Shown: one piece after another, positions 10,708 to 42,416 of the stretch
Layout of the letters: each line of letters opens with the position of its first letter
Numbering within the stretch: position 1 is the stretch's first letter
Translations under genes and position numbers: made by a program
The notes under the pieces: model-generated
What the model saw: only the letters and a program-made list of their open reading frames with translations
Database searches by the model: none
What the model was told of the DNA's origin: nothing
Assembly (NCBI GenBank): GCA_903858965.1
Contig: CAIOKY010000105.1
Span: 1-42,581, forward strand
Direction: 5' to 3'
From: an uncultured Nitrosomonadales bacterium
Lineage (GTDB): Bacteria; Pseudomonadota; Gammaproteobacteria; Burkholderiales; Gallionellaceae
DNA length: 42,581 nt

Positions 10708-11165
10708 GCCGCGCTTTTCCAGCCACCGAACAATTGAAAGATGCTGGCGCTGTCTTCGCAGGCGAGCAGGCGAGTACGGAATGACGTGTCGCTGAACATT
10801 TCCGCGAGTTCACCGAGGATTTGCAGGTGCAGATCGGTGGCGCGTTCCGGTACCAGCAGCACGAAGATCAGGTTCACCGGCAGTCCATCCGGCGCATCGA
10901 ACGGAATCGGGTGGGAGGTTTTTACAAATGCGGCTGTTGCGTCGCGCAACTTGGCGATGCGGCCATGCGGGATCGCCACGCCCTGGCCCAAACCGGTCGA
11001 GCCGAGTTTCTCTCGGGCGAACAGGCTGTCGAATACCTGGCTGCGGGCGATCTGCTGGTTGTTCTCAAACAGCAGGCCGACGCGCTCGAACACGCGTTTC
11101 TTGCTGGTGGATTCGGTGTCCAACAGGATGTTGTCGGGCAGCAGGATTTTGCTGATCTGGTTCAT
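10704..11165 (-). CDS. ptsN: Nitrogen-PTS EIIA protein PtsN
   Basis: EIIA-type regulator (153 residues) that takes a phosphoryl group on H67 within the conserved GVAIPHGRI, the hallmark of EIIA(Ntr)/fructose-type EIIA domains. It affects potassium transport, cell-envelope and sigma-54-linked processes in other bacteria. The start follows a purine-rich site, and the stop overlaps hprK's ATG. A large inverted repeat (11185-11239) lies between hpf and this gene. A potassium/proton antiporter gene lies 5 kb away, but no direct link can be shown. Confidence 0.93.
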   Translation of the reverse strand: MNQISKILLPDNILLDTESTSKKRVFERVGLLFENNQQIARSQVFDSLFAREKLGSTGLGQGVAIPHGRIAKLRDATAAFVKTSHPIPFDAPDGLPVNLIFVLLVPERATDLHLQILGELAEMFSDTSFRTRLLACEDSASIFQLFGGWKSAA

Positions 11166-11184
11166 GGTGGGGGCAGATAAATAT

Positions 11185-11239
11185 GGGCGGCGGCCTTCAT
11201 GTTGGATTTTACTGTTTTAAGGAAGGAACCGCGCCGCCC
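11185..11239 (-). other. Inverted repeat in the hpf-ptsN gap
   Basis: Perfect 8-bp GC arms GGGCGGCG (11185-11192) and CGCCGCCC (11232-11239) with a 39-base AT-rich loop fill most of the 82-base gap. In the minus-strand transcript this would form a long stem-loop shortly before the ptsN ribosome site. It has no T tract. It may lower read-through or be a processing site; function is inferred only. Confidence 0.4.
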
Positions 11240-11247
11240 GTTGTTGA

Positions 11248-11574
11248 TTACTCTACAGCGGCATGTTTGCCGGAATCGTCGTGGCGGCGTGCGGACAGCT
11301 TGTCCTTGTGCTTCCGCACTTGACGGTCCAGTTTGTCTACCAGCATCTCGATCGCTGTATACAGATTTTCATCATCGCATTCCACAAACAGGTTTTTGCC
11401 GCTGATGTGCATGGTGGCCTCGGCCTTCTGCTTCAGTTTTTCGACGGAAAGAATGACGTTTACGTCGATGATCACGTTGTCGAAATGGCGTTTGATTTTA
11501 CCAAATTTTTCGGTCGCATAATCGCGAATTGCCGGCGTGATTTCCAGGTGGTGTGCGGTTAGATGGAGGTTCAT
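11248..11574 (-). CDS. hpf: Ribosome hibernation promoting factor (short form)
   Basis: Protein of 108 residues of the HPF/YfiA family, which binds the 30S decoding centre in resting cells and promotes 100S dimers. It begins MNLHLTAHHLEITPAI and has the basic YATEKFGKIKRHF helix, the beta strands and the second helix typical of the family. A short charged tail (RKHKDKLSARRHDDSG) makes it the short form, not the long dimerising form. A clear AAGGAG site lies 8 bases upstream. It follows rpoN by 14 bases, the usual order, and co-transcription with rpoN is likely. Confidence 0.95.
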   Translation of the reverse strand: MNLHLTAHHLEITPAIRDYATEKFGKIKRHFDNVIIDVNVILSVEKLKQKAEATMHISGKNLFVECDDENLYTAIEMLVDKLDRQVRKHKDKLSARRHDDSGKHAAVE

Positions 11575-29368: not shown

Positions 29369-30115
29369 ATGCTGCTTAATGAATTGCGCGATTATAACGC
29401 AAGCCTGTTGCAAACCAACTTGTTCAAGGATTATTGCCCGAATGGCGTGCAGGTGGAAGGGCGTTCTGAAGTGCGGCGTATTGCTACCGGAGTGACGGCT
29501 TCGCAGCATGTGCTGGATGCCGCAATCGAGTGGGGTGCGGATGCGATTCTGGTGCATCACGGTTATTTCTGGCGCAACGAAGAGGCCACTATAACTGGCA
29601 TCAAGAAAAAACGTATCGCACAGTTGTTGCGTAACGACGTAAGCCTGCTGGCCTATCACCTGCCGCTTGATGCACACGGCGAATTAGGCAACAACGCACA
29701 ACTCGGCAAGTTGCTTGGTCTGATTGACCAGGGCCGGTTCGGGGAACAAAACATCGCCTGGCTGGGTTCGCTTGTGCGGCCCAAGGCGCTGATGCAATTC
29801 GCCCAGCAGATCGCCCATGATTTGCAGCGCACACCGCAAGTGATCGGGGATGGCAATAGGAACATACGCAAAGTGGCATGGTGCAGCGGCGGCGCACAAG
29901 GCTACTTTGAAGCGGCGATTGCACAAGGCGTGGATGCCTACATCACCGGAGAGATCTCAGAGCAGAACTTTCATCTGGCCAATGAAACCGGCGTGGCTTT
30001 CATCGCTGCGGGACACCATGCGACCGAGCGTTTTGGGATACAAGCGCTGGGCGAACATCTGGCAAAACAATTTGGCCTGGAGCATCGTTTTTTTGACCAG
30101 ACCAATCCGGTCTAA
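29369..30115 (+). CDS. Nif3-like dinuclear metal-centre protein
   Basis: YbgI/Nif3 family protein of 248 residues that forms toroidal hexamers with a two-metal site. Metal ligands are expected in ILVHHGYFW (about 63-71), YHLPLDAH (about 96-103) and the C-terminal AAGHHATERFG (about 211-221), all present. Annotated in databases as GTP cyclohydrolase I type 2, but its reaction is not established. In many Betaproteobacteria this gene is followed by petABC; here the unknown gene and the ACIII operon follow. Confidence 0.92.
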   Translation: MLLNELRDYNASLLQTNLFKDYCPNGVQVEGRSEVRRIATGVTASQHVLDAAIEWGADAILVHHGYFWRNEEATITGIKKKRIAQLLRNDVSLLAYHLPLDAHGELGNNAQLGKLLGLIDQGRFGEQNIAWLGSLVRPKALMQFAQQIAHDLQRTPQVIGDGNRNIRKVAWCSGGAQGYFEAAIAQGVDAYITGEISEQNFHLANETGVAFIAAGHHATERFGIQALGEHLAKQFGLEHRFFDQTNPV

Positions 30116-30168
30116 TTTGGCCAAGCCAATTCGATGTGCCCCAATCTTTTTGTATTGCCTGATTTAGG

Positions 30169-30804
30169 TCAATCGATCAGTTCGTCGCGCAATCGATTCA
30201 AGGAGGCAGCCAGGTTGTGCGGCGCGCTGGCCAGTGCTGCGTTGGCCTGTTCCACCGCTTCGCGGTGAGCTATCAGCAATGATCTGAAAATCATTTCGAC
30301 ATCGGCCAATGATTTTTCGGGTTGTTGTGCAAAGCGCAGCAAGAAATCTTTGCGACGCGGATGAAAGTTCGTCCACTGCCAGCCGAGGAAGCTTGCATTG
30401 TTCTTGAAGCCAGCTTGTTGCAGAGATGCTTTCAGGCTGCTGATGGCAGGCAATCTGAGTTGATCCGGTGTCGGTGCGGCGCTCCACATCAGCCCGAAAT
30501 AAATACGCCACACCCCACCGAGAAATTGTTGTTCCATCATTGGCCGCAAATAAAGCGGTTGCTCGGCGCTGCCCAGACAGTACAGTCCAACCAGATTATC
30601 CGGTGAATTACTGCCCTCGGTAAGCTCGATTCGCCACGCAAGGCCATATTCGTTTATCAGTACCTTAAGACATGACAATAACTCCCGCCAGAAACGGTTA
30701 TTTATTTGTTCGCGTAATGTATCCATTTGTTCGGCAACTGCGAGACCCAGTGGCAGGTTTTCTGCCTGGGCAAAAAAATCCATAACAGCTTGTTCTTCGT
30801 TCAT
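30169..30804 (-). CDS. Unknown soluble protein between nif3-like gene and ACIII operon
   Basis: I do not recognise this 211-residue protein. No signal peptide or membrane helix is visible, and it looks mainly alpha-helical in its last third (DVEMIFRSLLIAHREAVEQANAAL region). It contains several Trp/Phe-rich phrases (FLGGVWRIYFGLMW, FLGWQWTNFHPRR) and only two Cys. The start has no strong ribosome site. It is read against the ACIII operon and is divergent from it across a 335-base AT-rich gap, and it converges with the nif3-like gene. Base composition is not clearly foreign. A regulatory or accessory role for ACIII is only a guess from position. Confidence 0.65.
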   Translation of the reverse strand: MNEEQAVMDFFAQAENLPLGLAVAEQMDTLREQINNRFWRELLSCLKVLINEYGLAWRIELTEGSNSPDNLVGLYCLGSAEQPLYLRPMMEQQFLGGVWRIYFGLMWSAAPTPDQLRLPAISSLKASLQQAGFKNNASFLGWQWTNFHPRRKDFLLRFAQQPEKSLADVEMIFRSLLIAHREAVEQANAALASAPHNLAASLNRLRDELID

Positions 30805-30948
30805 AAAAATTAAGATCCTAAAATTCGGTCGGGAATTAACAATTTATATAATATGGTTAAACTTGAAAAGGTATATAAGTAATTGCTGTAATTCTGCATA
30901 GCATATAACTTTTTTTGCGGTGCAGAGGGTAACTTGTGATATTCAGTG

Positions 30949-30977
30949 TTGACTTTATTTTTCAGACTAGACATTAT
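30949..30977 (+). promoter_or_regulatory. Candidate sigma-70 promoter of the act (ACIII) operon
   Basis: TTGACT (30949-30954), 17-base spacer, CATTAT (30972-30977). Transcription would start near 30984 and give a leader of about 155 bases before actA. A second possible pair, TTGAAA (30863-30868) and TGTAAT (30887-30892) with 18-base spacing, lies further upstream. The gap from 30805 to 31139 is AT-rich and holds no supported gene. Confidence 0.5.
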
Positions 30978-31087
30978 TCGTCTGTGTGGTCGCGCCGTGC
31001 TCGTTTAGGCGGATAAAAATGTATGTGGATGATAAATAATTATCGCGGCACAACGCATCAATAAATAATCCGATTTATCTGTTCAAT

Positions 31088-31109
31088 CATGCTGGCGCAA
31101 GCCAGTATG
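31088..31109 (+). promoter_or_regulatory. Stable GNRA-capped hairpin in the actA leader
   Basis: CATGCTGGC, loop GCAA, GCCAGTATG: nine base pairs (one G-U) closed by a GNRA tetraloop. It ends about 12 bases before the GGGGGAG ribosome site and 30 bases before the actA ATG. It has no T tract, so it is not a terminator. It could set mRNA stability or translation of the operon. Confidence 0.5.
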
Positions 31110-31139
31110 GGACCATTGTTTGCTGGGGGAGCCCTTACG

Positions 31140-31928
31140 ATGCACCGTTTTTTACGTTTGTCTGTTTTACTGATGGGGCTGTTTGCTGCCGTAGGCAGCT
31201 ATGCCGTCGATGCGCCGCAATCCGAACCAGTGGATCCAGGTATTGAAGGTTCTGCTATCGACAAGTCTGCAAAGGAAAAATCCGATAGTGGAGGCTCTGC
31301 TTTATCTACATGGGAGTCGAAATACTTTGGATTGGGTTCTGAGGGCGAAGATGATAATGTGGGCCCTGCGGTCGAACAGCCGATCGAGTTCCCGCACTTT
31401 CGTCATGCTGGCGACGCTGACAAGGGCGGTATGGAGATCAATTGCATGTATTGCCATACCTACGCCCGGCGCAGTCTGGTGGCCGGTATTCCTCCTGTTC
31501 AAAAATGCATAGGTTGCCACCAGAACATCGAGTCGGTGCGTGACAAACCGCGCATCAAAAAATTGTTCGAATACTGGGACGCCAAAAAAGCCATTCCCTG
31601 GAAGAAGGTGCATGACCTTCCCGACTTCGTGCGCTTCAGCCACGAGCGCCATGTCAAACGTTTTATCTTTCAGTTGAACCGTCCGGTCCAGGAAGTCTGC
31701 GGCTACTGTCACGGCGAAGTGAAAACGATGACTGTGGCGCGCCGCCAGAAACTGCTTTCCATGGGATTTTGCGTGACCTGCCATGAAAAAGATCATCCGG
31801 TTACCGCCGAAGGCGGCACGCCGATTGGCGATCAGGCATATTGGTACAGCATGCGCAAGCCGCTTATTGATGCCTCGGGCATTATTAAAGCCAAAGGCCC
31901 GAACGACTGTTCGGTATGCCACAAATAG
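31140..31928 (+). CDS. actA: Alternative Complex III subunit ActA, pentaheme cytochrome c
   Basis: Periplasmic pentaheme subunit of ACIII, the quinol:electron acceptor oxidoreductase that replaces bc1. The 262 residues carry five CXXCH motifs: C102, C123, C187, C211 and C257 (first Cys of each), the last one only one residue from the C-terminus. The N-terminus has a hydrophobic helix (about 3-22) that serves as signal peptide or anchor, then an acidic Ser/Asp-rich linker (about 25-80). An in-frame ATG 51 bases earlier exists, but the GGGGGAG site and signal peptide favour the start at 31140. First gene of the operon actA-B1-B2-C-D-E-F. Confidence 0.92.
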   Translation: MHRFLRLSVLLMGLFAAVGSYAVDAPQSEPVDPGIEGSAIDKSAKEKSDSGGSALSTWESKYFGLGSEGEDDNVGPAVEQPIEFPHFRHAGDADKGGMEINCMYCHTYARRSLVAGIPPVQKCIGCHQNIESVRDKPRIKKLFEYWDAKKAIPWKKVHDLPDFVRFSHERHVKRFIFQLNRPVQEVCGYCHGEVKTMTVARRQKLLSMGFCVTCHEKDHPVTAEGGTPIGDQAYWYSMRKPLIDASGIIKAKGPNDCSVCHK

Positions 31929-31942
31929 TTAGAGAGGTTGTG

Positions 31943-34156
31943 ATGATGAACAATGTTTTTGATCGACGTGATTTTCTGAAGGTGCTGGGTTGGGGCGGTG
32001 CGGCGGTTGCGTTGAGCGGTTGCGGCAACGGTTCCGTGGAAAACGGCGAGGAAACTGTCGTTTCGTATGTTGAAACGAACGATTTCATGATCCCCAGTAT
32101 CAGCGTGTATTTCAATTCGACCTGCGCGCAGTGCGATGCGGGTTGCAGCATCACCGGGCGTATCCGTGAGGGGCGCGTGCTGAAGGTGGAAGGCAATCCC
32201 GATTCGGGAATCAATCGCGGCAAAACCTGCGGGCTGGGGCAGGCGGGCGTGCAACACCACTACAATCCCGATCGTGTGCGCGAGCCGTTGCTGCGTACCG
32301 GTAATTCGGGCGAAGCCATCACTTGGGAAAAGGCCTATGCGCTGATCGCCGAGAAGATGAACGGCGTGAGCGGCGAAGAAATCGCGTTTTTGAGCGGCGG
32401 CGTGAGCGGTCATTTGAAAGTGTTGCTGGGCAACTATCTGGACAGCTTCGGTTGCAAGAACCACTTCGTGTATGAAGCGATCGCGCCGGCTGTAGTGCGC
32501 GCCGCAAACAAGAAATCGTACGGCGTGGAGATGCCGCGCTTCAATATCAGCAAGGCCAAGGTGGTGCTGTCGTTCGGCGCCGATTTCCTGGGCGCGTGGA
32601 TTTCACCGGTGCATTTCTCGCAACAATATGCGCAGTTCCGCAAAGGTGCGGATGGGCAGCGTGGCGTGCTGGTGCAGGTCGAATCCAAGATGACATTGAC
32701 CGGCGCCAATGCGGATCGCTGGTTGGTGGTACGCCCCGGGACGGAAGGCATTCTGGCGCTGGGCATCATCAATGCGCTGGGTAGCCACGGTGTCGCGCTG
32801 TCCGGTGATATTGCCGCTGCGGTGAAGAGTTATAACAAGGATCGTGTCAGCAAGGATACCGGCGTATCGGCAGAGCAGATCGACAAGATCGCTGCCCTGC
32901 TGAAGACGCGTACCCCCAGTCTGGTGCTGGCTGGCAGCGCGGCAGAAGGCTACGCGCATGGTTCACAGAATGCAGCCGCAATCAACCTGCTCAATCAGGT
33001 GTTGGGTAATGTGGGCAAGACAGTAGAAGCCGCGGAAGCGGTTCCGTTCCCGCAGATGGCGCCGGCGACAGGCAATACCGTTGCGCTGAAGACGCTTAAC
33101 GATGGGCTGAATGCAGGCAAGTACAAAGTGCTGTTCAGCTACGCAACCAATCCGGTATTCACCGCGCCCGGCGTGATGAAGTTTCAGGACAATATGGCCA
33201 AGGCAGGCTTCAAGGTGGTGTTTTCCCACTACATGGATGAGACTGCCATGCAGGCCGATCTGGTCTTGCCATTGGATTCCGCGCTGGAAGATTGGGGCAC
33301 GCAGGTTCCGGAATATCTGGCGACTTGCGCGCAAATCAACATCCAGCAACCGTTGATGGAAAAACTGCACGCCAATACACGCGGCATGGGCGACATTTTG
33401 CTGGCATTGATCAAACAGCGCCGTGCGGAGGACTACAAGAAATTCGATGATTACTATGCCTACCTGCGCGCGGCAGTACTGCAAAACAAGGGCGCGTTGG
33501 GCGGCAAAGCTATCGCCGATGACGATATCTTCTGGAATGAAACGTTGAGCAAGGGCATCATCAAGCTGGAAGGGCCGGTCAAGGCGTTATCAAGCAAGGC
33601 TAGTGTGGCGGGATTGATGCTGCCGGCACCCGTCGCGATTGATGCGCAATATCCGCTGCAACTGATTCCAAGCGTGAATGCCAGTCTGCGCGATGGGCGT
33701 AATGCCAACCAACCCTGGTTGCAGGAATCGCCTGATCCATTGACCACGATCGTGTGGGATTCCTGGGTGGAGATTCATCCCAGGAAGGCCGCCGAACTGG
33801 GGATAGTCGAAGGCGATATCGTCGAAGTGACCAGCAAGAACGGATCGGTAAAAGCACAAGCGTATCTGTTTCCCGGAATACATCCTGACGCAATATCAAT
33901 ACCGCTGGGCCGCGGCCACGAAGCGATGGGTCGGTATGCCAAGGGTTATGGCGTGAACCCGTTCCAGATTCTGGATGCGGTATTCGACAAGGAAACCGGT
34001 GAGCTGGCGTTGCATGAAACACGCGTCAAAGTCAGCAAGACTGGGTCGCGCGTGATCGTGGTCAAAGATGAAGGTCCTGCGGGAGGTAGTCAAATGGGCA
34101 AGAAGATTGCCGCACGCTTGCCCAGCGACAAAGTTAAGCTTTCGGAGGAGATCTAA
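31943..34156 (+). CDS. actB1: ACIII subunit ActB1, molybdopterin-oxidoreductase-like, Tat lipoprotein
   Basis: Large periplasm-facing subunit of 737 residues, homologous to the catalytic chain of the CISM (PsrA/TtrA) family. It starts with a twin-arginine signal D7-R8-R9-D-F-L-K and a lipobox L-S-G-C27, so it should be exported folded and lipid-anchored. C61-x2-C64-x3-C68-x27-C96 is a complete cluster motif of the molybdopterin family. The usual protein ligand of Mo is not apparent, in line with ACIII lacking Mo. The C-terminal cofactor-binding-type domain (SWVEIHPRKAAELGI, IPLGRGHEAMGRYAKG) is retained. In many ACIIIs this part is fused to the ferredoxin-like part; here a stop codon and 2 bases separate them. 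An ATG 27 bases upstream inside actA is less likely. Confidence 0.88.
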   Translation: MMNNVFDRRDFLKVLGWGGAAVALSGCGNGSVENGEETVVSYVETNDFMIPSISVYFNSTCAQCDAGCSITGRIREGRVLKVEGNPDSGINRGKTCGLGQAGVQHHYNPDRVREPLLRTGNSGEAITWEKAYALIAEKMNGVSGEEIAFLSGGVSGHLKVLLGNYLDSFGCKNHFVYEAIAPAVVRAANKKSYGVEMPRFNISKAKVVLSFGADFLGAWISPVHFSQQYAQFRKGADGQRGVLVQVESKMTLTGANADRWLVVRPGTEGILALGIINALGSHGVALSGDIAAAVKSYNKDRVSKDTGVSAEQIDKIAALLKTRTPSLVLAGSAAEGYAHGSQNAAAINLLNQVLGNVGKTVEAAEAVPFPQMAPATGNTVALKTLNDGLNAGKYKVLFSYATNPVFTAPGVMKFQDNMAKAGFKVVFSHYMDETAMQADLVLPLDSALEDWGTQVPEYLATCAQINIQQPLMEKLHANTRGMGDILLALIKQRRAEDYKKFDDYYAYLRAAVLQNKGALGGKAIADDDIFWNETLSKGIIKLEGPVKALSSKASVAGLMLPAPVAIDAQYPLQLIPSVNASLRDGRNANQPWLQESPDPLTTIVWDSWVEIHPRKAAELGIVEGDIVEVTSKNGSVKAQAYLFPGIHPDAISIPLGRGHEAMGRYAKGYGVNPFQILDAVFDKETGELALHETRVKVSKTGSRVIVVKDEGPAGGSQMGKKIAARLPSDKVKLSEEI

Positions 34157-34158
34157 AA

Positions 34159-35013
34159 ATGTCGATCAGCACTTTATTGGAAAATTACTCGGAGTTTCGC
34201 CATTTTCATCCGGTGGATGATGTGCCGCACAACCCCTACAAATGGGCGATGAGTATCGATCTGGACGCATGCAGCGGTTGCAATGCGTGCAGCGTCGCTT
34301 GTTATGCGGAAAACAATCTGCCTGTGGTTGGCAGGGAAAAATATCTGCACGGCCAGGCGATGCACTGGATGCGCATCGAGCGCTACTGGGATGAAGACGG
34401 CCGCGAGTTCCCGGATCAGGGCGCGCAGTTCCTGCCGATGATGTGCCAGCAATGCGAAGCCGCTCCATGCGAAACGGTCTGCCCGGTTGGCGCGACCAAC
34501 CATACGCCGGACGGCATCAATTCGCAGATATATAACCGCTGCATCGGTTCGCGTTATTGCTCGGCCAACTGCCCGTACAAAGTACGTTACTTCAACTGGT
34601 ATGACTACCCAACCACCGATAATGTCTGGCCTGCCGAGATGAATCAGCAGCTGAATCCGGATGTGACGGTGCGCGGCAAGGGCGTGATGGAAAAATGCAC
34701 ATTCTGTATCCAGCGTGTCACGGTGGCCAAAAATAACGCCAAGAGTGAAGGGCGACTGGTGCATGATGGCGAGGTGCAGACAGCCTGCCAGCAAGCATGT
34801 CCGACCAGTGCCATATCTTTCGGCAATCTGGTTGACCCGGAATCCAGGGTGCACAAGCAATGGCAAGTCCAGAAAGTCGAGCTGGATAAAGATGCGCAAA
34901 CCAAGGATAAGGAAGAGGGCGGCAGCGATCTGCGCGGCTATCGTATCCTGGAAGAACTGCGTCCTTATCCATCGGTCATGTATCTGGAACGTGTGCGCGA
35001 AACCGCCATTTGA
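34159..35013 (+). CDS. actB2: ACIII subunit ActB2, four-cluster ferredoxin-like
   Basis: Iron-sulfur subunit of 284 residues (PsrB/NrfC-like). Four ligand sets are visible: C38/C41/C44/C48; C96/C99/C104/C108; C128/S131/C134/C138; C180/C183/C210/C214. In the third set a Ser replaces the second Cys, as expected for the one [3Fe-4S] cluster of ACIII, leaving three [4Fe-4S] sites. It has no signal peptide of its own, so it should be carried out with the Tat-targeted ActB1 (hitchhiking). Usually this is the C-terminal domain of one fused ActB. Confidence 0.9.
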   Translation: MSISTLLENYSEFRHFHPVDDVPHNPYKWAMSIDLDACSGCNACSVACYAENNLPVVGREKYLHGQAMHWMRIERYWDEDGREFPDQGAQFLPMMCQQCEAAPCETVCPVGATNHTPDGINSQIYNRCIGSRYCSANCPYKVRYFNWYDYPTTDNVWPAEMNQQLNPDVTVRGKGVMEKCTFCIQRVTVAKNNAKSEGRLVHDGEVQTACQQACPTSAISFGNLVDPESRVHKQWQVQKVELDKDAQTKDKEEGGSDLRGYRILEELRPYPSVMYLERVRETAI

Positions 35014-35052
35014 GCCAGCAAAAATCACTGCAATTTCTTTAGGAAATAAACA

Positions 35053-36435
35053 ATGAAAGATATCCGCGAAGACATCGCTTGGGCGCAGATCAATAAAGAC
35101 GTGCTCAAGAGCTTAGAAAATCCCCGAAGAATGTATTGGGTAATATTATTCATCGCGATCGCCATGGTCGGTGTTGCCGTGGGTTGCGAGGTTTATCAAT
35201 ACACCACAGGTCTGGGTGTGGCAAATTTCAGTAATCCGCATGTGTGGGGTTTGTATATCGCCACGTTCATCTTCTGGATCGGCATGAGCCATTCCGGTAC
35301 CCTGCTGTCGGCGATCTTGCATTTGATGCATGCCGACTGGCGCAAGCCGATCTACCGGTTTGCCGAAGCGATGACAACCTTTTCGCTGATGACCGCCGGC
35401 CTGTTTGTGGCGGTGCACTTGGGTCGCGTGTGGCAGATTTATTATGCCTTGCCGTATCCGAACATGCGTCAGGTGTGGCCGAACTTCCAGTCGCCGCTGC
35501 TTTGGGATGCGATGGCGATCTTCACTTATCTGAGTTCGTCCATCCTGTTCCTGTACGTTGGGATGATTCCCGATCTGGCGATCTGCCGCGATAACATGAA
35601 TCCTGGCTGGCGCAAAAAACTCTACACCGCATTGGCACTGGGCTGGGAAGGGACGGACCGCCAATGGCGTAATTTCCGTGTCACCTACCTGACGATCGCG
35701 TGCTTCCTGATCCCACTAGCGGTATCGGTGCACTCCATCGTGGCGTCGGACTTCGCGATGTCGCAACAGCCCGGCTGGCACATTACTTCGTTCCCGCCGT
35801 ACTTCGTGGCCGGCGCGCTGTATTCCGGTTGTGCCGCGATCATCACGCTGTTCATCATCCTGCGTTATGTGTTCAAGTTCGAGGAATATATGACGATGGG
35901 GATTCTGAAGAAAATCGTGCGCCTGACTTTTGCGATTGCGATGGTGTGGACTTACCTGAACCTGATCGAGTACGCAGCAGTCTGGTACGGCCATGATCAG
36001 GCAGCCAAAGATGTACTGATCCAGAAAGCCACAGGCCCTTATGCGCCGTTCTGGTGGGCGATGAATTTCTGCGGCTCTATCGTGCCGCTGATCATGCTGT
36101 TCAAGCGTTTCCAAACGCATATTCCGATGATGATGGCAGTGTCCATATTGCTGAATCTGGGCATGTGGCTGGAACGCTGGATGATTGTTGCGCCGACTTT
36201 TTCGCACGGTTACTACCCGTGGACTTGGGATCATGACCAGTGGCCGAGTCTGGTGCAATGGGGCATCGTGTTCGGCAGTTTCGGCTGGTTTGGCTTGCTG
36301 TTCATGGTGTTCTGCAAGGTATTCCCGTCGGTCTCCATGTATGAGGTTAAGGAAATGGTTTATCACCGCAGTCAGGCAACTAAAAAGCTGGAAGCCACCG
36401 GAAAAATGGCAGCAGCCGGGAAGGGAGCACACTAA
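35053..36435 (+). CDS. actC: ACIII subunit ActC, NrfD-like quinol-oxidising membrane protein
   Basis: Polytopic protein of 460 residues with about ten helices in two four-helix bundles plus extra helices, of the NrfD/PsrC family. It has conserved phrases FWIGMSHSGTLLSAILHLM (His of the quinol site), EAMTTFSLMTAGLFVAVHLGR, and HSIVASDFAMSQQPGWHITSFPPYF. In ACIII, ActC binds menaquinol/ubiquinol near the periplasmic side. A Lys/Ala/Gly-rich tail ends the protein. actD starts directly at its stop. Confidence 0.93.
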   Translation: MKDIREDIAWAQINKDVLKSLENPRRMYWVILFIAIAMVGVAVGCEVYQYTTGLGVANFSNPHVWGLYIATFIFWIGMSHSGTLLSAILHLMHADWRKPIYRFAEAMTTFSLMTAGLFVAVHLGRVWQIYYALPYPNMRQVWPNFQSPLLWDAMAIFTYLSSSILFLYVGMIPDLAICRDNMNPGWRKKLYTALALGWEGTDRQWRNFRVTYLTIACFLIPLAVSVHSIVASDFAMSQQPGWHITSFPPYFVAGALYSGCAAIITLFIILRYVFKFEEYMTMGILKKIVRLTFAIAMVWTYLNLIEYAAVWYGHDQAAKDVLIQKATGPYAPFWWAMNFCGSIVPLIMLFKRFQTHIPMMMAVSILLNLGMWLERWMIVAPTFSHGYYPWTWDHDQWPSLVQWGIVFGSFGWFGLLFMVFCKVFPSVSMYEVKEMVYHRSQATKKLEATGKMAAAGKGAH

Positions 36436-36966
36436 ATGAGCAAACGTCATTTACTCGCGTTATTCACCAATTTTGACGAGGCCGAGGCGGTGGTCAAAGA
36501 GTTGCGCGGTGTCAGCCTCAAAGGCTTTGATGCAAACAAAGACATGGTTATCAAATCACCGATTGAGCATCCGGAATGCGAGAGTCTTTTGGGTGAAAAG
36601 CCTGTTCGTGTCCAGTGGTTCACTTTGGGTGGAGCATTAACAGGAGGTTTGTTGGCCTTCTCTTTGATTTCGGCTTCACAAGGCAATTTTTTCGCACAGA
36701 TGAAGGGTGGAAAACCCATCGTGCCATTCCCGCCCAATTTTGTGTTGACCTACGAGATGTTCATTCTGGGCGGCGTGTATATTTCCGTGCTGGGCTTCCT
36801 GATATGCGCGGGTTTGCCGGCTAGGCGTTCGCCGTTATACAGCGCAAAGGTGTCCGAAGATCAAATCGGTATCCTGGTGCAGTCTGATGAAGCTGCGAGC
36901 GGTTCCTTGAAGGCAATTTTCACGAAACACAAAGCATTGGAAATTCAGGAAGAGGCGGGGAAATGA
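36436..36966 (+). CDS. actD: ACIII subunit ActD (DUF3341)
   Basis: Membrane subunit of 176 residues of the DUF3341 family. A cytoplasmic N-terminal ferredoxin-like domain (KRHLLALFTNFDEAEAVVKEL) is followed by two helices (about 62-82 and 103-128). No cofactor motif. In ACIII it packs against ActC and has a structural role. It abuts actC and overlaps actE by 4 bases. Confidence 0.92.
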   Translation: MSKRHLLALFTNFDEAEAVVKELRGVSLKGFDANKDMVIKSPIEHPECESLLGEKPVRVQWFTLGGALTGGLLAFSLISASQGNFFAQMKGGKPIVPFPPNFVLTYEMFILGGVYISVLGFLICAGLPARRSPLYSAKVSEDQIGILVQSDEAASGSLKAIFTKHKALEIQEEAGK

Positions 36967-37592
36967 GAAAGTTATCCTTAGCAATGATAAAACAACTAGC
37001 CATTCGACTAGGCTATCAAATGACAATAGCCAAGTCGCTGGTTATTGCGTTGTTGCTTGCACCCACGTTTGCGCATGCGTGGCCATGGTCCATGGACATG
37101 GCCAATCAAATCAGCATCAAACCGCAGGAAAGCGTTGACCCGGCCAATCCCGGCATGAATTCTTTCCCCAAGCGCTCGGTGCCCGTTGCCGGCACTGCGA
37201 CTTCTTCCATAGAGGTCAAGGATAAAGACGCCGCATTCAAACTGGTCAATCCTATTCCCGCTGACAAAAAGTCGGTCGAAATGGGTGGTCGTTTGTTTGC
37301 AATTTATTGTGTCCCGTGTCACGGCAAGTCGGGTACCGGAGATGGGTACGTCGGCAAAAAATTGCTCATGACGCCGTTCAATCTGACGTCGAGCAACGAT
37401 ATGCATCCCTGGGATTCCAAAGATTACCCGGATGGATACATCTTTGGCATGATGACTTTTGGCGGTGTGGTCATGCCGATTTATGCCATTGATCTGAGCC
37501 CCACCGAACGTTGGCATGTCGTAAATTATGTTCGTACTGTGCTGCAAAAGAAAGCGCCCGTTGCTGCTACGGCTGCGCAGAAGACAAAATAG
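36963..37592 (+). CDS. actE: ACIII subunit ActE, monoheme cytochrome c
   Basis: Periplasmic monoheme cytochrome of 209 residues, with heme motif C116-V-P-C119-H120 and a possible Met ligand in FGGVVMPIYA. The N-terminus has a long basic leader and a hydrophobic stretch (about 22-38) ending in FAHA, a clear signal-peptidase I site. No lipobox Cys is present, whereas ActE of some other ACIIIs is a lipoprotein. A start at 37020 (MTIAKSL) would give a shorter leader, but it has no ribosome site, while the ATGA overlap with actD supports 36963. Confidence 0.9.
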   Translation: MRKLSLAMIKQLAIRLGYQMTIAKSLVIALLLAPTFAHAWPWSMDMANQISIKPQESVDPANPGMNSFPKRSVPVAGTATSSIEVKDKDAAFKLVNPIPADKKSVEMGGRLFAIYCVPCHGKSGTGDGYVGKKLLMTPFNLTSSNDMHPWDSKDYPDGYIFGMMTFGGVVMPIYAIDLSPTERWHVVNYVRTVLQKKAPVAATAAQKTK

Positions 37593-37604
37593 GAGACGGT
37601 CAAA

Positions 37605-38624
37605 ATGTTTTCATATAGCAATTGGTCTGTTTTGACTGTGAATTTTCTGGTGGTGCTGTATCTGGCGCTGGGCGGTGTGACGCTCTCCGCAGTGCTGTAT
37701 CTGGTTGGCGCACGCTGGAGATATGAGGTTCGCCAAGTCGCAAGCTCTTTGTTTGCGCTGTTCCCATTGGCATTTGTGTTATTGATCGTGTTGCTGGTTA
37801 ACGGCGAGTCGACTTTCCCGTGGCTGAAAGAAACCGGCGAACACGCGCACCATCACATGCCGGCCTGGCACAATTACACCTTCCTGGTTGCGCGCGAAAT
37901 CCTCGGCATGCTGGTGGTGATGGCGATACACTGGGTGTTCATCCAGCGTCAAGCCGTGAGCGAACGCAGTGCGGAAGATGCGGCACGATTCCATGTTATT
38001 GCCTGCGCGGTTCCTTATGCTTACGTGCTGTACGGCACGATGGTGGCTTGGGATTTTGAAATGACCATGCTTCCTTCTTGGGAGAGCGCGATTTACGGGA
38101 TGCAGCATTTCGTCAGCAATTTCGGCATGTTCCTGTCGTTCCTGGTGATCTGGATCTTTGCCCTGAACAGTTGCAAGAAGCTGGTGCGTCCGGTTGAAAC
38201 CTATGTTTACAACTATCTCGCACAAATGCTGTTTGCCTTTACCTTGTTGTGGGTCTATACCTTCTTTGCGCAATACCTGACGATCTGGTACGGCAATCTG
38301 CCGCCAGAACGGGATCGCATGGTGGGCATGCAAGACGGTGATTACACCTTTATCTTCTGGGGCATGTTTGTGCTGAAATTGGTGATTCCGTTCAGTACGC
38401 TTGCGTTCCCATTCACCCGGCATAATCCCAAGGCGACGGCGGCGGTGGCGACCTGTATCATCATCGGTACGTTGTTTGAGCGCTATGTCTGGATTGCCGG
38501 AGTTAATGGCGGCGTGGGTACATATCCGATATTGGCTGCAATAGTGGTCAGCGGAGTAGTTGCGGTAATTGGTTTTTTCCTGGTGCGTATGCGCATGCAA
38601 AGCACCCAGTTGATCAAAGGGTAA
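37605..38624 (+). CDS. actF: ACIII subunit ActF, polytopic membrane protein
   Basis: Membrane subunit of 339 residues with about nine or ten helices, distantly related to ActC. It contains a His-rich loop EHAHHHMPAWHNYTFLVAREIL (periplasmic loop, about 73-94) and later LLWVYTFFAQYLTIWYGNLPPE. It has no heme motif. In ACIII, ActF pairs with ActC and may contain a proton pathway. Preceded by an AGGAGACGG site. It is the last act gene; no actG-like gene follows. sspA starts within a few bases. Confidence 0.9.
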   Translation: MFSYSNWSVLTVNFLVVLYLALGGVTLSAVLYLVGARWRYEVRQVASSLFALFPLAFVLLIVLLVNGESTFPWLKETGEHAHHHMPAWHNYTFLVAREILGMLVVMAIHWVFIQRQAVSERSAEDAARFHVIACAVPYAYVLYGTMVAWDFEMTMLPSWESAIYGMQHFVSNFGMFLSFLVIWIFALNSCKKLVRPVETYVYNYLAQMLFAFTLLWVYTFFAQYLTIWYGNLPPERDRMVGMQDGDYTFIFWGMFVLKLVIPFSTLAFPFTRHNPKATAAVATCIIIGTLFERYVWIAGVNGGVGTYPILAAIVVSGVVAVIGFFLVRMRMQSTQLIKG

Positions 38625-38630
38625 ATGGTA

Positions 38631-39230
38631 ATGATGAGATTGTATTCCGGGACTTCAGATCCCTATAGTCATCGCTGCCGAATCGTGCTGTTCGAAAAGG
38701 GCATGGATTTTGAGGTGATAGACGTGGATTTGATGAACAAATCTGAAGATGTAGCCGCAATCAATCCCTATGGCAAAGTGCCGGTGCTGGTGGAGCGCGA
38801 TCTGGTGTTGTATGAAGCGAACATCATCAACGAATATATTGATGAGCGTTTCCCCCATCCGCAACTGATGCCGCCCGATCCTGTTATGCGTGGCCGCGCG
38901 CGCTTGTTTCTGCATCGCTTCGAACAGGAGATATACAGCCAGATTGGCGTGATCGAGCATGGTGTACCAAAGGCGGCCGACAAGGCGCGCGCGATCATTC
39001 GCGACAATCTGACTCAGCTTGCGCAGATATTGGCCAACCAGAAGTTCTTGTTGGGTGATGAATTCTCCATGCTGGATGTGGCGATTGCGCCGTTGCTATG
39101 GCGGCTAGACCATTATGGTATCCAGATGGGCAAAGATGCCGTGCCGCTGATGAAATACGCCGAACGGCTGTTTTCCCGTCAGGGGTTTATCGATTCACTG
39201 ACGGCATCGGAAAGAGCGATGCGCAAGTGA
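38631..39230 (+). CDS. sspA: Stringent starvation protein A
   Basis: Glutathione-S-transferase-fold protein of 199 residues that binds RNA polymerase in stationary phase and acid stress. It begins MMRLYSGTSDPYSHRCRIVLFEKGMDFE. The segment YGKVPVLVERDLVLYEANIINEYIDERFPHPQLMP is SspA-like. The Cys of GST enzymes is absent at the active position (SDPYSH), as usual for SspA. Other in-frame ATGs (38625, 38634) are possible. It is co-transcribed with actF. In many Betaproteobacteria sspA follows petC. Confidence 0.93.
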   Translation: MMRLYSGTSDPYSHRCRIVLFEKGMDFEVIDVDLMNKSEDVAAINPYGKVPVLVERDLVLYEANIINEYIDERFPHPQLMPPDPVMRGRARLFLHRFEQEIYSQIGVIEHGVPKAADKARAIIRDNLTQLAQILANQKFLLGDEFSMLDVAIAPLLWRLDHYGIQMGKDAVPLMKYAERLFSRQGFIDSLTASERAMRK

Positions 39231-39308
39231 TGCCAGTCGTGCTTCATCGGTGATGTTGCTGAAGTTTCCTTGCCTGCCTGCGATTTTGTTTAACCGACCG
39301 GGGGTGGA

Positions 39309-39707
39309 ATGAGCGATTTATCCACGCGTCCGTACTTGATCCGTGCGATTTACGAATGGTGTGTGGATAGCGGATTGACTCCCTATCTGGCCGTTCGTGT
39401 CGATGAGCATACCGAGGTGCCGCGCGCCCACGTGAAGGACGGCGAGATCGTGCTGAACCTGAGTGCCGATGCAGTGCGCAATCTGCTGATGGGCAACGAG
39501 ATGATCACCTGCACCGGACGATTTGGCGGCGTTCCATTCGATCTGATGGTACCTGTTATAGCGGTTATCGGTATATTTGCCAAGGAGACCGGACAAGGAT
39601 TGGTGTTTCAAGGGGATGGCCCTCAACCTCCCCCCCTTGCTACGCATGGCGGCATTGATGAATCAAAGCCTAAACCCCACAAACCGCAATTGAAAATCGT
39701 CAAATAA
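39309..39707 (+). CDS. sspB: ClpXP protease specificity-enhancing factor SspB
   Basis: Adaptor (132 residues) that delivers ssrA-tagged and other proteins to ClpXP. It has the conserved start TRPYLIRAIYEWCVDSG, YLAVRVDEHTEVPRAHVKDG and an F-G-G-V-P-F strand. The flexible C-terminus PKPHKPQLKIVK ends with the ClpX-tethering motif (LKIVK). It follows sspA by 78 bases and ends just before a terminator. Confidence 0.95.
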   Translation: MSDLSTRPYLIRAIYEWCVDSGLTPYLAVRVDEHTEVPRAHVKDGEIVLNLSADAVRNLLMGNEMITCTGRFGGVPFDLMVPVIAVIGIFAKETGQGLVFQGDGPQPPPLATHGGIDESKPKPHKPQLKIVK

Positions 39708-39772: not shown

Positions 39773-40636
39773 CTAAGCAGAGGGAAGTGCAAGGGTTGCA
39801 TGCATCTTGCTCATCGCCTTCTGCTCGATCTGGCGGATACGTTCAGCGGACACATTGAATTCGGCGGCCAAGTCATGCAGCGTCGCCGCTGTACCTTCGT
39901 CGCACAACCAGCGTGCCTCAACAATGCGGCGGCTACGCTCATCCAGTTCCGCCAGAGCACTTGCCAAACCGGAAGTTTGCAGATGTTCGCGCTCTGTTGT
40001 TTCCAGAATATGTGAGGGTTCATGCTCTTCGTTGTCTGCCAGATACTGTATCGGCGCATAGCTCTCATCGTCATCAATACCGCCGGGTTCCAGCGCGATC
40101 TCATGTCCGGCGAAGCGCGCTTCCATATCTATCACATCGTGTTCGCTGACGTTGAGCTGCTGTGCGATCTCGCTGATTTGCTGGGGTTTGAGCGGTTCCA
40201 AACCTTTCTTCATGCTGCGCAAATTGAAGAACAGCTTGCGTTGCGATTTGGTGGTGGCAATCTTCACCAGCCGCCAGTTGCGCACCACGAATTCGTGAAT
40301 CTCGGCACGTATCCAATGCAATGCGAAGGAAACCAAGCGTACACCCCGATCCGGGTCGTAGCGTTTCACGGCCTTCATTAATCCGATGTTACCTTCCTGA
40401 ATCAGGTCGGCTTGCGGCAAGCCGTAACCAGCATAACCTCGAGCCACGCTGACTACTACCCTCAAGTGAGAAAGTACTAACTCACGCGCAGCCTCCAAGT
40501 CGTTTTCGGTTTTGAAGCGTATCGCCAAACTAACCTCTTCCTCCTGAGACAGGATAGGGAAGCGATTGACCGTCTGGATATAGCCATCCAAGCTACCAAC
40601 GGCAGACGGTATGGGTAAACTCATTGTGGTATTCAT
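39773..40636 (-). CDS. rpoH: RNA polymerase sigma-32 (heat-shock) factor
   Basis: Heat-shock sigma factor of 287 residues. Region 2 (DLIQEGNIGLMKAVKRYDP and FALHWIRAEIHEFV) is followed by the RpoH box QRKLFFNLR (about 133-141), which separates it from RpoD/RpoS, and region 4 with the HTH (AAEFNVSAERIRQIEQKAM). The start MNTTMSLP is fixed by an AAGGAGAG site 8 bases upstream. Promoter and CIRCE element lie just upstream. Confidence 0.97.
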   Translation of the reverse strand: MNTTMSLPIPSAVGSLDGYIQTVNRFPILSQEEEVSLAIRFKTENDLEAARELVLSHLRVVVSVARGYAGYGLPQADLIQEGNIGLMKAVKRYDPDRGVRLVSFALHWIRAEIHEFVVRNWRLVKIATTKSQRKLFFNLRSMKKGLEPLKPQQISEIAQQLNVSEHDVIDMEARFAGHEIALEPGGIDDDESYAPIQYLADNEEHEPSHILETTEREHLQTSGLASALAELDERSRRIVEARWLCDEGTAATLHDLAAEFNVSAERIRQIEQKAMSKMHATLALPSA

Positions 40637-40991: not shown

Positions 40992-42416
40992 ATGAATAAA
41001 ACCATTCTCTTTCTGGCAGGAATAGCGGCCATGACTTTGGTATCGGAAGTGTCGGCCCTACCCCTGTTTGCCCGCCAAACAGGCATGGCATGTTCAGCGT
41101 GCCATTTCCAGCACTTTCCGTTGCTGAACGGTTTTGGCCGTGCATTCAAGTCTGCCGGCTACACAATGATTGCCACGCAGGGAAAAGTTGAAGGCGAAGG
41201 ATTGAGCATACCCAGTACCTTGAATATGGCCGTTTTGACGACTGCAGGATATGAAAAATCCAACCAGACCGTCAGCAAGACTGCCGAAAATACAACGGGT
41301 GATGGCGCATTCTATGTGCCGGGCAATGGCGGCGAGCTGGACCTGTTCATCGGCGGAAGGGTCAGCAGCAATACCGGATTCCTCGCTGAGGTAGGTAGAG
41401 GTGGAGCAGTGTCGGGTACCGCCATCAGCAGTACGCGCAGTTCTGCCAAGTTGCCTATTCTTTTTGAAATCAATTCCAATATGTTCAAATTGGCGGAAGG
41501 CACGCGTGCCGGTTTCGTGCCGTTCAGTACAGATGACGAGGGCGCGTCCTACGGTTTCGAGCTGTTGAATACCGGCGCGAATGCCGTGCAGCAGATGAGC
41601 GCCACTTCGGGTCTGAATGATGCCCACAGCGCGGCGCTTTCGGCACAGCAATATATCGGGACCGCAGGCGCCGTGACCGGCGTGGCATTGGTGGCGAACA
41701 ACCCGGCCGGTTTCATCAACCTGACCAAGTATAACCAGACCGGCATATCCCACGGCGCTCTGGCGGTGCTGGGGTCCACATATTTGCGCGTGACGGGCAT
41801 GTTCGATCTGGCCGGATGGGATGCCGGGGTGGGAATACAGAGCTGGAGCGGGAGCTCGGTCAGCCCCACGGGTACGCCTGGATACATTTTTTCCACTCCA
41901 ATATGCGGGCCGAATGGGGCGAACTGTAATCCTGTCAACCAGACTGCTCCAGCTACCTATGGCGTCACCCAAACGAAGGCGACCGCGATCGATGGTCAGA
42001 TGCAGGGCAGCATGGGGCCCCTGCCGGTGGGTTTCTACTTCAGCTATGCCAGGGCGCCAGCCGGGAATTCCAATTCGTATAACATCGATCCGGCCGCCGC
42101 AGTGGCAGGCTCTGCGGTAATCACAGCCTATGGTACGGCGACCAAGAGTGCTTTGAATATTTCTATGGAAGTGGGCGTGATTCCTGAAAAAGCCACCTTG
42201 GGAGCAGCCATGCGCCGCGGCAGGAGTGGTGTTGCCGTGGGAGCTGCCGACAATGCAAGCGATAATGCGATTACGCTTGTCGCCACTTACAATCTGGCAC
42301 AGAACATGATGGCATCCTTCTCGCTCACTAATTCGAACGGTGAGTACTGGGATGCAGCGCACCAGGATGCACTGGGCAGCAAAACCTGTACGATCAATTT
42401 GGTTACCCTGTTCTAA
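40992..42416 (+). CDS. Cyc2-like outer-membrane monoheme cytochrome-porin fusion
   Basis: Protein of 474 residues: signal peptide (about 1-22, ending VSA), then at the very start of the mature chain a single heme site within LPLFARQTGMACSACH (C34, C37, H38) followed by F-P-L-L-N-G-F-G-R-A-F-K-S-A-G-Y. Residues ~60-474 look like an outer-membrane beta barrel: many short amphipathic Gly/Ser/Thr/Ala-rich strands, no helices, and a terminal Phe (NLVTLF). The FARQTG-x2-C-x2-CH start plus barrel is the layout of Cyc2 iron oxidases, but related cytochrome-porins of unknown role share it, so Fe(II) oxidation is inferred. A Cys pair about 330 residues in (ICGPNGANC) may bridge a loop. GAGGAAAAG lies before the start. 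Confidence 0.7.
   Translation: MNKTILFLAGIAAMTLVSEVSALPLFARQTGMACSACHFQHFPLLNGFGRAFKSAGYTMIATQGKVEGEGLSIPSTLNMAVLTTAGYEKSNQTVSKTAENTTGDGAFYVPGNGGELDLFIGGRVSSNTGFLAEVGRGGAVSGTAISSTRSSAKLPILFEINSNMFKLAEGTRAGFVPFSTDDEGASYGFELLNTGANAVQQMSATSGLNDAHSAALSAQQYIGTAGAVTGVALVANNPAGFINLTKYNQTGISHGALAVLGSTYLRVTGMFDLAGWDAGVGIQSWSGSSVSPTGTPGYIFSTPICGPNGANCNPVNQTAPATYGVTQTKATAIDGQMQGSMGPLPVGFYFSYARAPAGNSNSYNIDPAAAVAGSAVITAYGTATKSALNISMEVGVIPEKATLGAAMRRGRSGVAVGAADNASDNAITLVATYNLAQNMMASFSLTNSNGEYWDAAHQDALGSKTCTINLVTLF

Follow-up and report, generated by a model that had tools for sequence, protein, structure and literature searches.

One slot between nif3 and sspA holds alternative complex III or a type-II bc1 complex in Gallionellaceae

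The act locus and its neighbours

The window, by which we mean the whole analysed stretch of 42,581 nucleotides from an uncultured bacterium of the family Gallionellaceae, contains a gene cluster in the order nif3, orf211 (minus strand), actA-B1-B2-C-D-E-F, sspA, sspB, and rpoH (minus strand). The left flank is formed by nif3 (29369..30115, plus strand), a DUF34/NIF3 gene matching Pfam PF01784, which is the left neighbour in the fetched loci of both ACIII-bearing and bc1-II-bearing relatives. The genes hisA, hisF, hisI, hisE, a HIT protein gene, tatB, tatC, and a minus-strand gene of an HtrA/Do-type protease are located upstream. The orf211 gene (30169..30804, minus strand) is positioned between nif3 and actA and has no Pfam match. 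It is an element that the preliminary description of the locus left unmentioned; the gene calls and coordinates given there for nif3, the seven act genes, sspA, and sspB are right, and the claimed left flank of hisI, hisE, HIT, tatB, tatC, HtrA-type protease, and nif3 was recovered.

The seven act genes (31089-38624) are all encoded on the plus strand. The cluster begins with actA (31089..31928), the product of which is a pentaheme cytochrome c with five CXXCH motifs and matches to Pfam cytochrome c families. The actB gene is split into actB1 (31916..34156), encoding a molybdopterin-oxidoreductase-like subunit (Pfam PF00384, PF01568, PF04879), and actB2 (34159..35013), encoding an iron-sulfur subunit with Pfam 4Fe-4S dicluster domains. 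The NrfD-type membrane subunit is encoded by actC (35053..36435; Pfam PF03916), and is followed by actD (36436..36966; Pfam PF11821 ActD, E 2.5e-32) and the monoheme cytochrome c gene actE (36963..37592; one CXXCH motif, Pfam PF13442). The membrane subunit gene actF (37605..38624) lacks a Pfam match and was named from its position and from homologs at the same place. The cluster is the gene set of an alternative complex III (ACIII) with an ActD-family subunit, since it combines this subunit with an NrfD-type ActC, a split ActB, a five-heme ActA, and a one-heme ActE. ACIII is regarded as an alternative to bc1 in the role of complex III. Judged by its family membership, the ACIII of the window probably acts as a quinol:electron-acceptor oxidoreductase.

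The right flank starts with sspA (38625..39230, plus strand; Pfam GST domains), for which the last codons of actF contain a Shine-Dalgarno-like stretch, as read from the sequence of the junction. It is followed by sspB (39309..39707, plus strand; Pfam PF04386) and by the sigma-32 gene rpoH (39773..40636, minus strand), which scores above the cut-off of NCBIfam TIGR02392. Beyond rpoH, the window encodes a 474-residue protein (40992-42416, plus strand) with one CXXCH motif near its N-terminus and no match in Pfam or NCBIfam; it may be similar to fusions of a monoheme cytochrome with a porin, of which Cyc2 is an example.

The petABC genes of a bc1 complex are missing from the gap between nif3 and sspA, as had been claimed, and a search with PF00033 detected no cytochrome b there. 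The replacement of bc1 proposed in the same description does not extend to the whole genome, because petABC of the type I lineage is encoded on another contig, C34. Its cytochrome b gene (G000:C34:9063-9620) provides the sole PF00033 match of the genome and is accompanied by genes for the Rieske protein and cytochrome c1 in the order cysG-petA-petB-petC-small cytochrome c-mrp. The PetB of this type I complex is approximately 50% identical to the sspA-linked PetB of type II. With 95.25% completeness and 2.08% contamination in the assembly, there is a slight possibility that the C34 bc1 is a binning error, though bc1 of this type is found in many genomes of the family. No petABC beside another copy of sspA was found in the genome, in which a single SspB match and a single strong match to cytochrome b are located on different contigs. 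A small cytochrome c gene with a PSCyt1 match (10963-11370 of locus L002, plus strand) adjoins petABC-I. Eight bc1-II loci carry, between nif3 and petA, an open reading frame of 138-153 residues, the first 50 of which were examined and have a signal-peptide-like start; its product may be similar to the small cytochrome c next to petABC-I.

Slot contents in the order and the family

The neighbourhood of petABC and sspAB was surveyed in 160 genomes of the order, 142 of which have both a strong PetB and an SspB among the matches listed. The two genes are at most 4 kb apart in 131 of the 142 genomes, and in 128 of the 137 outside the family of the window, again among the matches listed, which bears out the earlier view of petABC-sspAB as the usual arrangement. 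ActD was found in 11 of the 160 genomes and is adjacent to sspB on assembled contigs only in two genomes of the same family. In 60 of 80 named ACIII loci, sspA comes next after actF; in 13, more than 1 kb of downstream sequence is without sspA, and the remaining 7 end too early or lack actF. Genome G273 has two ActD loci (C1:2005331 and C1:3007743), only one of which is beside sspB.

A census of 121 genomes of the family with at least 85% completeness shows that the place before sspB is taken by ACIII in 64, by type II bc1 (bc1-II) alone in 32, and by type I bc1 (bc1-I) in one; 20 genomes are unlinked or undetermined, and four are without an SspB match. The unlinked class is partly an assembly effect, because in G267, which is counted there, petC adjoins sspA at a contig end. 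ACIII is present in 68 genomes, two of which, G248 and G250 (8% and 6% contamination), also have type II bc1; G248 is the one such genome among the 64 with ACIII in the slot. Type II is found in 42 of the 53 genomes without ACIII. Type I was found in 51 genomes, of which 47 also have ACIII, and together with type II only in G250. These types were assigned from the ends and scores of Pfam profile matches with E <1e-60 only, and type II was confirmed by sequence in fetched loci only. Comparison of independent pairs on the RpoB+RpoC tree gave a median p of 0.125 for the association of ACIII with bc1-I, which is not significant, a borderline 0.0625 for ACIII against bc1-II, and 0.031 for bc1-I against bc1-II. 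In G205 and G162, putative relics of ActD that score under the family cut-off and contain stops were rejected, as no act match with E<=1e-3 was obtained from the corresponding stretches L219 and L220; with these genomes left out, the ACIII count is 68 and not 70.

We fetched 60 sspB stretches from 59 genomes (four outside the family). The flanks htrA (minus strand) and nif3 on one side and sspA, sspB, and rpoH (minus strand) on the other are common to either content wherever the stretch reaches far enough. The slot is empty in G160, G162, and G163, where nif3 is followed directly by sspA. In locus L167 of G223, the slot contains type I bc1 in the arrangement cysG-mrp-petABC-sspAB, and the related L032 has mrp-petABC-I-orf211-act-sspAB.

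A petC stub is located 127 bp before sspA in G211 (63% identity over residues 190-241 and 75% over 137-152, E 6e-20), and an intact petABC-II is found elsewhere in this genome. It is the one petABC relic that we accept. Weak petC matches in ACIII loci and actE matches in bc1-II loci, with E values mostly between 1e-4 and 0.05, keep falling on one and the same part of cytochrome c, and we attribute them to common heme motifs and not to relics. In the G211 locus (L224), the stub is followed by a divergent gene, which we take to be protein-isoaspartate methyltransferase-like, and then by a gene that we take to be TolC-like. Relocation of a type-II operon, as in G211, together with the presence of petABC elsewhere in the genome of the window, allows the reading that the C34 petABC is the old slot operon, moved when ACIII arrived. 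Nevertheless, C34-type PetB is only about 50% identical to the slot type, whereas slot-type PetBs of four other families share 75-79% with that of the family. Moreover, the C34 PetB is 70% identical to that of G036 (locus L229, family f36), in which nif3 stands directly before sspA and both ACIII and a type-I-like bc1 are encoded elsewhere. The chance that the C34 operon came from the slot is therefore very slim.

Flanks, gene trees, and the start of sspA

In-situ (xenologous or non-orthologous) gene displacement is the replacement of a resident gene set at its place by a set with the same role. Close relatives in our sample have the same flanks with different contents, as exemplified by G254 (ACIII) and G260 (bc1-II), in which HtrA is 86%, Nif3 88%, SspA 97%, and SspB 86% identical, and the same 249-residue minus-strand gene, 87% identical, is located to the left of the slot; others show the same. 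The in-place swap that had been proposed for the window is borne out by such relatives as an exchange of petABC-II and ACIII between nif3 and sspA, but not as a single event, because the RpoB+RpoC tree (46 genomes) requires at least six changes between ACIII and bc1-II, and eight when the empty and bc1-I states are included. All trees were calculated with LG+G4, mostly by quick searches, including that of RpoB+RpoC.

The trees of the flanks, sspAB (63 loci) and htrA-nif3 (43 loci), broadly agree with genus assignment and the RpoB+RpoC tree, and slot contents change eight and seven times on them, respectively. The sspAB genes broadly follow the species tree and not the slot content, which speaks against act genes that were inserted elsewhere and moved with them. 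The slot genes themselves are partly at odds with the species tree. The act tree (34 family loci and nine outgroup loci) joins genus g2 to G252 and G226 (support 100/100) and G229 to genus g1 (100/99); holding the g2 act genes with their RpoB+RpoC relatives was rejected (p 5e-48), in line with transfer of ACIII. The petABC-II genes of G214/G215 cluster with those of G203, G206, and G218 (95/96), and their placement with G225, G172, and G174 was rejected (p 0.0042). The test for the petABC-II of g2 was modest (AU p 0.0215). The flanks thus follow the species tree and the slot genes do not in three cases: the ACIII of g2, the ACIII of G229, and the petABC-II of G214/G215. The conflict between trees suggests transfers into the slot that ran both ways. 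It is best read as replacement of type II by ACIII more than once and, in G214/G215, as a return to type II, because RpoB+RpoC and both flank trees place these two among ACIII genomes.

Losses from an ancestor of the family in which petABC-II adjoined ACIII ahead of sspA would explain the distribution without transfer. Two loci do carry both complexes side by side: L070 has petABC-II, orf211, act, and sspAB on a contig that starts at petA, with the left flank unseen, and G248/L047 has act, sspAB, and petAB-II. Contig C10 of G248 groups with other families in trees, contig C66 groups with its own genus, and C10 is probably a contaminant. The arrangement in G223 also resembles a deletion of act from an L032-like locus. 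Against such losses, the act and petABC-II trees conflict with that of RpoB+RpoC, the petABC-II genes of L070 and G248 group together at 93/94 though act and sspAB place them in different genera, and a single clade of g1 petABC-II and L070 was rejected (p 0.0022). We consider ancestral coexistence unlikely and favor repeated exchange at the slot, with which the loci carrying both complexes and the petC stub of G211 also agree.

The start of sspA differs according to slot content. In g1 (24 loci), similarity in the first two 30-nucleotide windows of the gene is 10.2 and 8.8 points higher within slot types than between them, and the mean contrast over the rest of sspA is 0.09 (SD 1.6); the contrast at the sspA start in g2 (12 loci) is 5.0. 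None of 500 label shuffles, which ignore relatedness, reaches the contrast of the first 60 nucleotides in g1, and none of 500 in g2. G195 is an exception, with ACIII next to a bc1-II-like sspA start, and g103, which includes one bc1-II genome only, gave no signal in the first 30 nucleotides. A nearest-neighbour measure on sspA did not discriminate, with 23/24 and 12/12 in both parts. The sorting suggests a right-hand crossover within the start of sspA; it is also possible that it reflects adaptation of the translation start.

Movement of larger segments, in which nif3 and sspAB were carried along with the slot content and the flanks are not native, fits G151, where htrA-nif3 and petABC-II cluster with those of G023/G260/G261/G262 but RpoB+RpoC and sspAB cluster with those of G270/G070. 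At this locus, the left flank may have been carried along as well. As a general account it is very improbable, as the flank trees of g2 and G214/G215 agree with RpoB+RpoC on genus-level neighbours, and nif3 is not sorted according to what the slot contains, the contrast being reached by 99 and 158 of 500 label shuffles.

The actF-sspA junction, a model of exchange, and orf211

The two complexes differ in how they are joined to sspA. The petC-sspA spacer has a median length of 129 bp (21 bc1-II loci, other families included), and the actF-sspA spacer 8 bp, with a range of -1 to 11 bp (32 ACIII loci). A hairpin with a T-run within 140 nucleotides before sspA is present in 17 of 18 bc1-II loci of the family (27% in dinucleotide shuffles) and, by the same search, in six of 32 ACIII loci (11% in shuffles). 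As read from the sequences, such an element also follows actF in four of nine outgroup act clusters (L071, L072, L073, and L082). Compared with the petABC-sspAB neighbourhood of Burkholderiales, the flanks and position in the window are the same, but the slot contains ACIII, and the hairpin-bearing spacer is gone. The operon link to sspAB had been suggested to be kept from petABC; since a terminator-like hairpin and about 129 bp separate bc1-II from sspA, and it is ACIII that abuts sspA, the sequences indicate that the link was made with ACIII. The near-constant junction suggests one founding join that then spread, and sspAB are probably co-transcribed with act.

We propose, with a probability of roughly 0.8, that the nif3-sspA stretch is a chromosomal slot that accommodates a quinol:cytochrome c oxidoreductase, with petABC of type II as the usual content in the order, and that repeated swaps occurred by recombination in the flanks. 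An ACIII cassette would have joined sspA in the Gallionellaceae, lacking the terminator-like elements that elsewhere follow petC or actF. Since then, this cassette and bc1-II would have replaced each other several times, with at least one reversion to bc1-II. The agent was most likely homologous recombination through the shared flanks, to the left of orf211 or petA and, on the right, at the start of sspA. ACIII would take on the electron exchange between quinol and cytochrome c that relatives perform with bc1-II, and in iron oxidizers it would probably run uphill as well. This would differ from a simple in-situ displacement in that two unrelated multi-subunit complexes were exchanged, repeatedly and at least once back.

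ACIII with the same gene set and a split actB is on record for the Gallionellaceae Gallionella ES-2, Sideroxydans ES-1, Ferriphaselus, and Nitrotoga (PMC4643136), and was proposed as a stand-in for bc1 in ES-2 (PMC3770913). Published accounts report the absence of bc1 from ES-2 and of canonical complex III from Nitrotoga fabula, as well as act gene transfer between Beta- and Zetaproteobacteria (PMC3770913, PMC4643136, PMC6050957). According to a pangenome study, 85.1% of the iron oxidizers of the family have bc1 and 55.2% have ACIII (PMC10734462). Both complexes are thus already published for the family; the sspA-linked slot, the exchange with petABC, the actF-sspA junction, and orf211 are not described in the passages covered of PMC4643136 and PMC3770913, and we found no description of a shared slot or its exchange in the open-licence literature. 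Exchange at one locus between relatives with 97% identical SspA provides evolutionary evidence that ACIII can replace a bc1, and such relatives constitute natural matched pairs for studying the role of each enzyme in Fe(II) or nitrite oxidation. A further prediction is that sspAB and the act operon respond jointly. The act cluster of ES-1 is induced up to log2 6.84 after Fe(II) addition, and sspA is absent from the main text of that study (PMC8788666).

The orf211 gene is present in 63 of the 68 ACIII genomes and in one of the 53 others (G237, 85% complete), an association supported by independent pairs at 7 to 0 (p 0.0156). It is located within 12 kb of actD in 41 of the 63 genomes; the association is more than linkage, because the other 22 copies are on another contig or farther away. 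We guess that its product is an assembly partner of ACIII, which makes it a new candidate partner protein. More tentatively, and with somewhat doubtful prospects, the slot may be a recombination-served exchange site for complex III, at which two unrelated quinol:cytochrome c oxidoreductases change places among lineages. Wherever ACIII prevails, the stress regulators SspA and SspB would be drawn into the act operon and thereby come to be controlled by electron-donor supply, and orf211 would be a dedicated ACIII assembly partner. Structure comparison revealed no clear structural relative of the orf211 protein, the predicted structure of which is confident (pLDDT 91).
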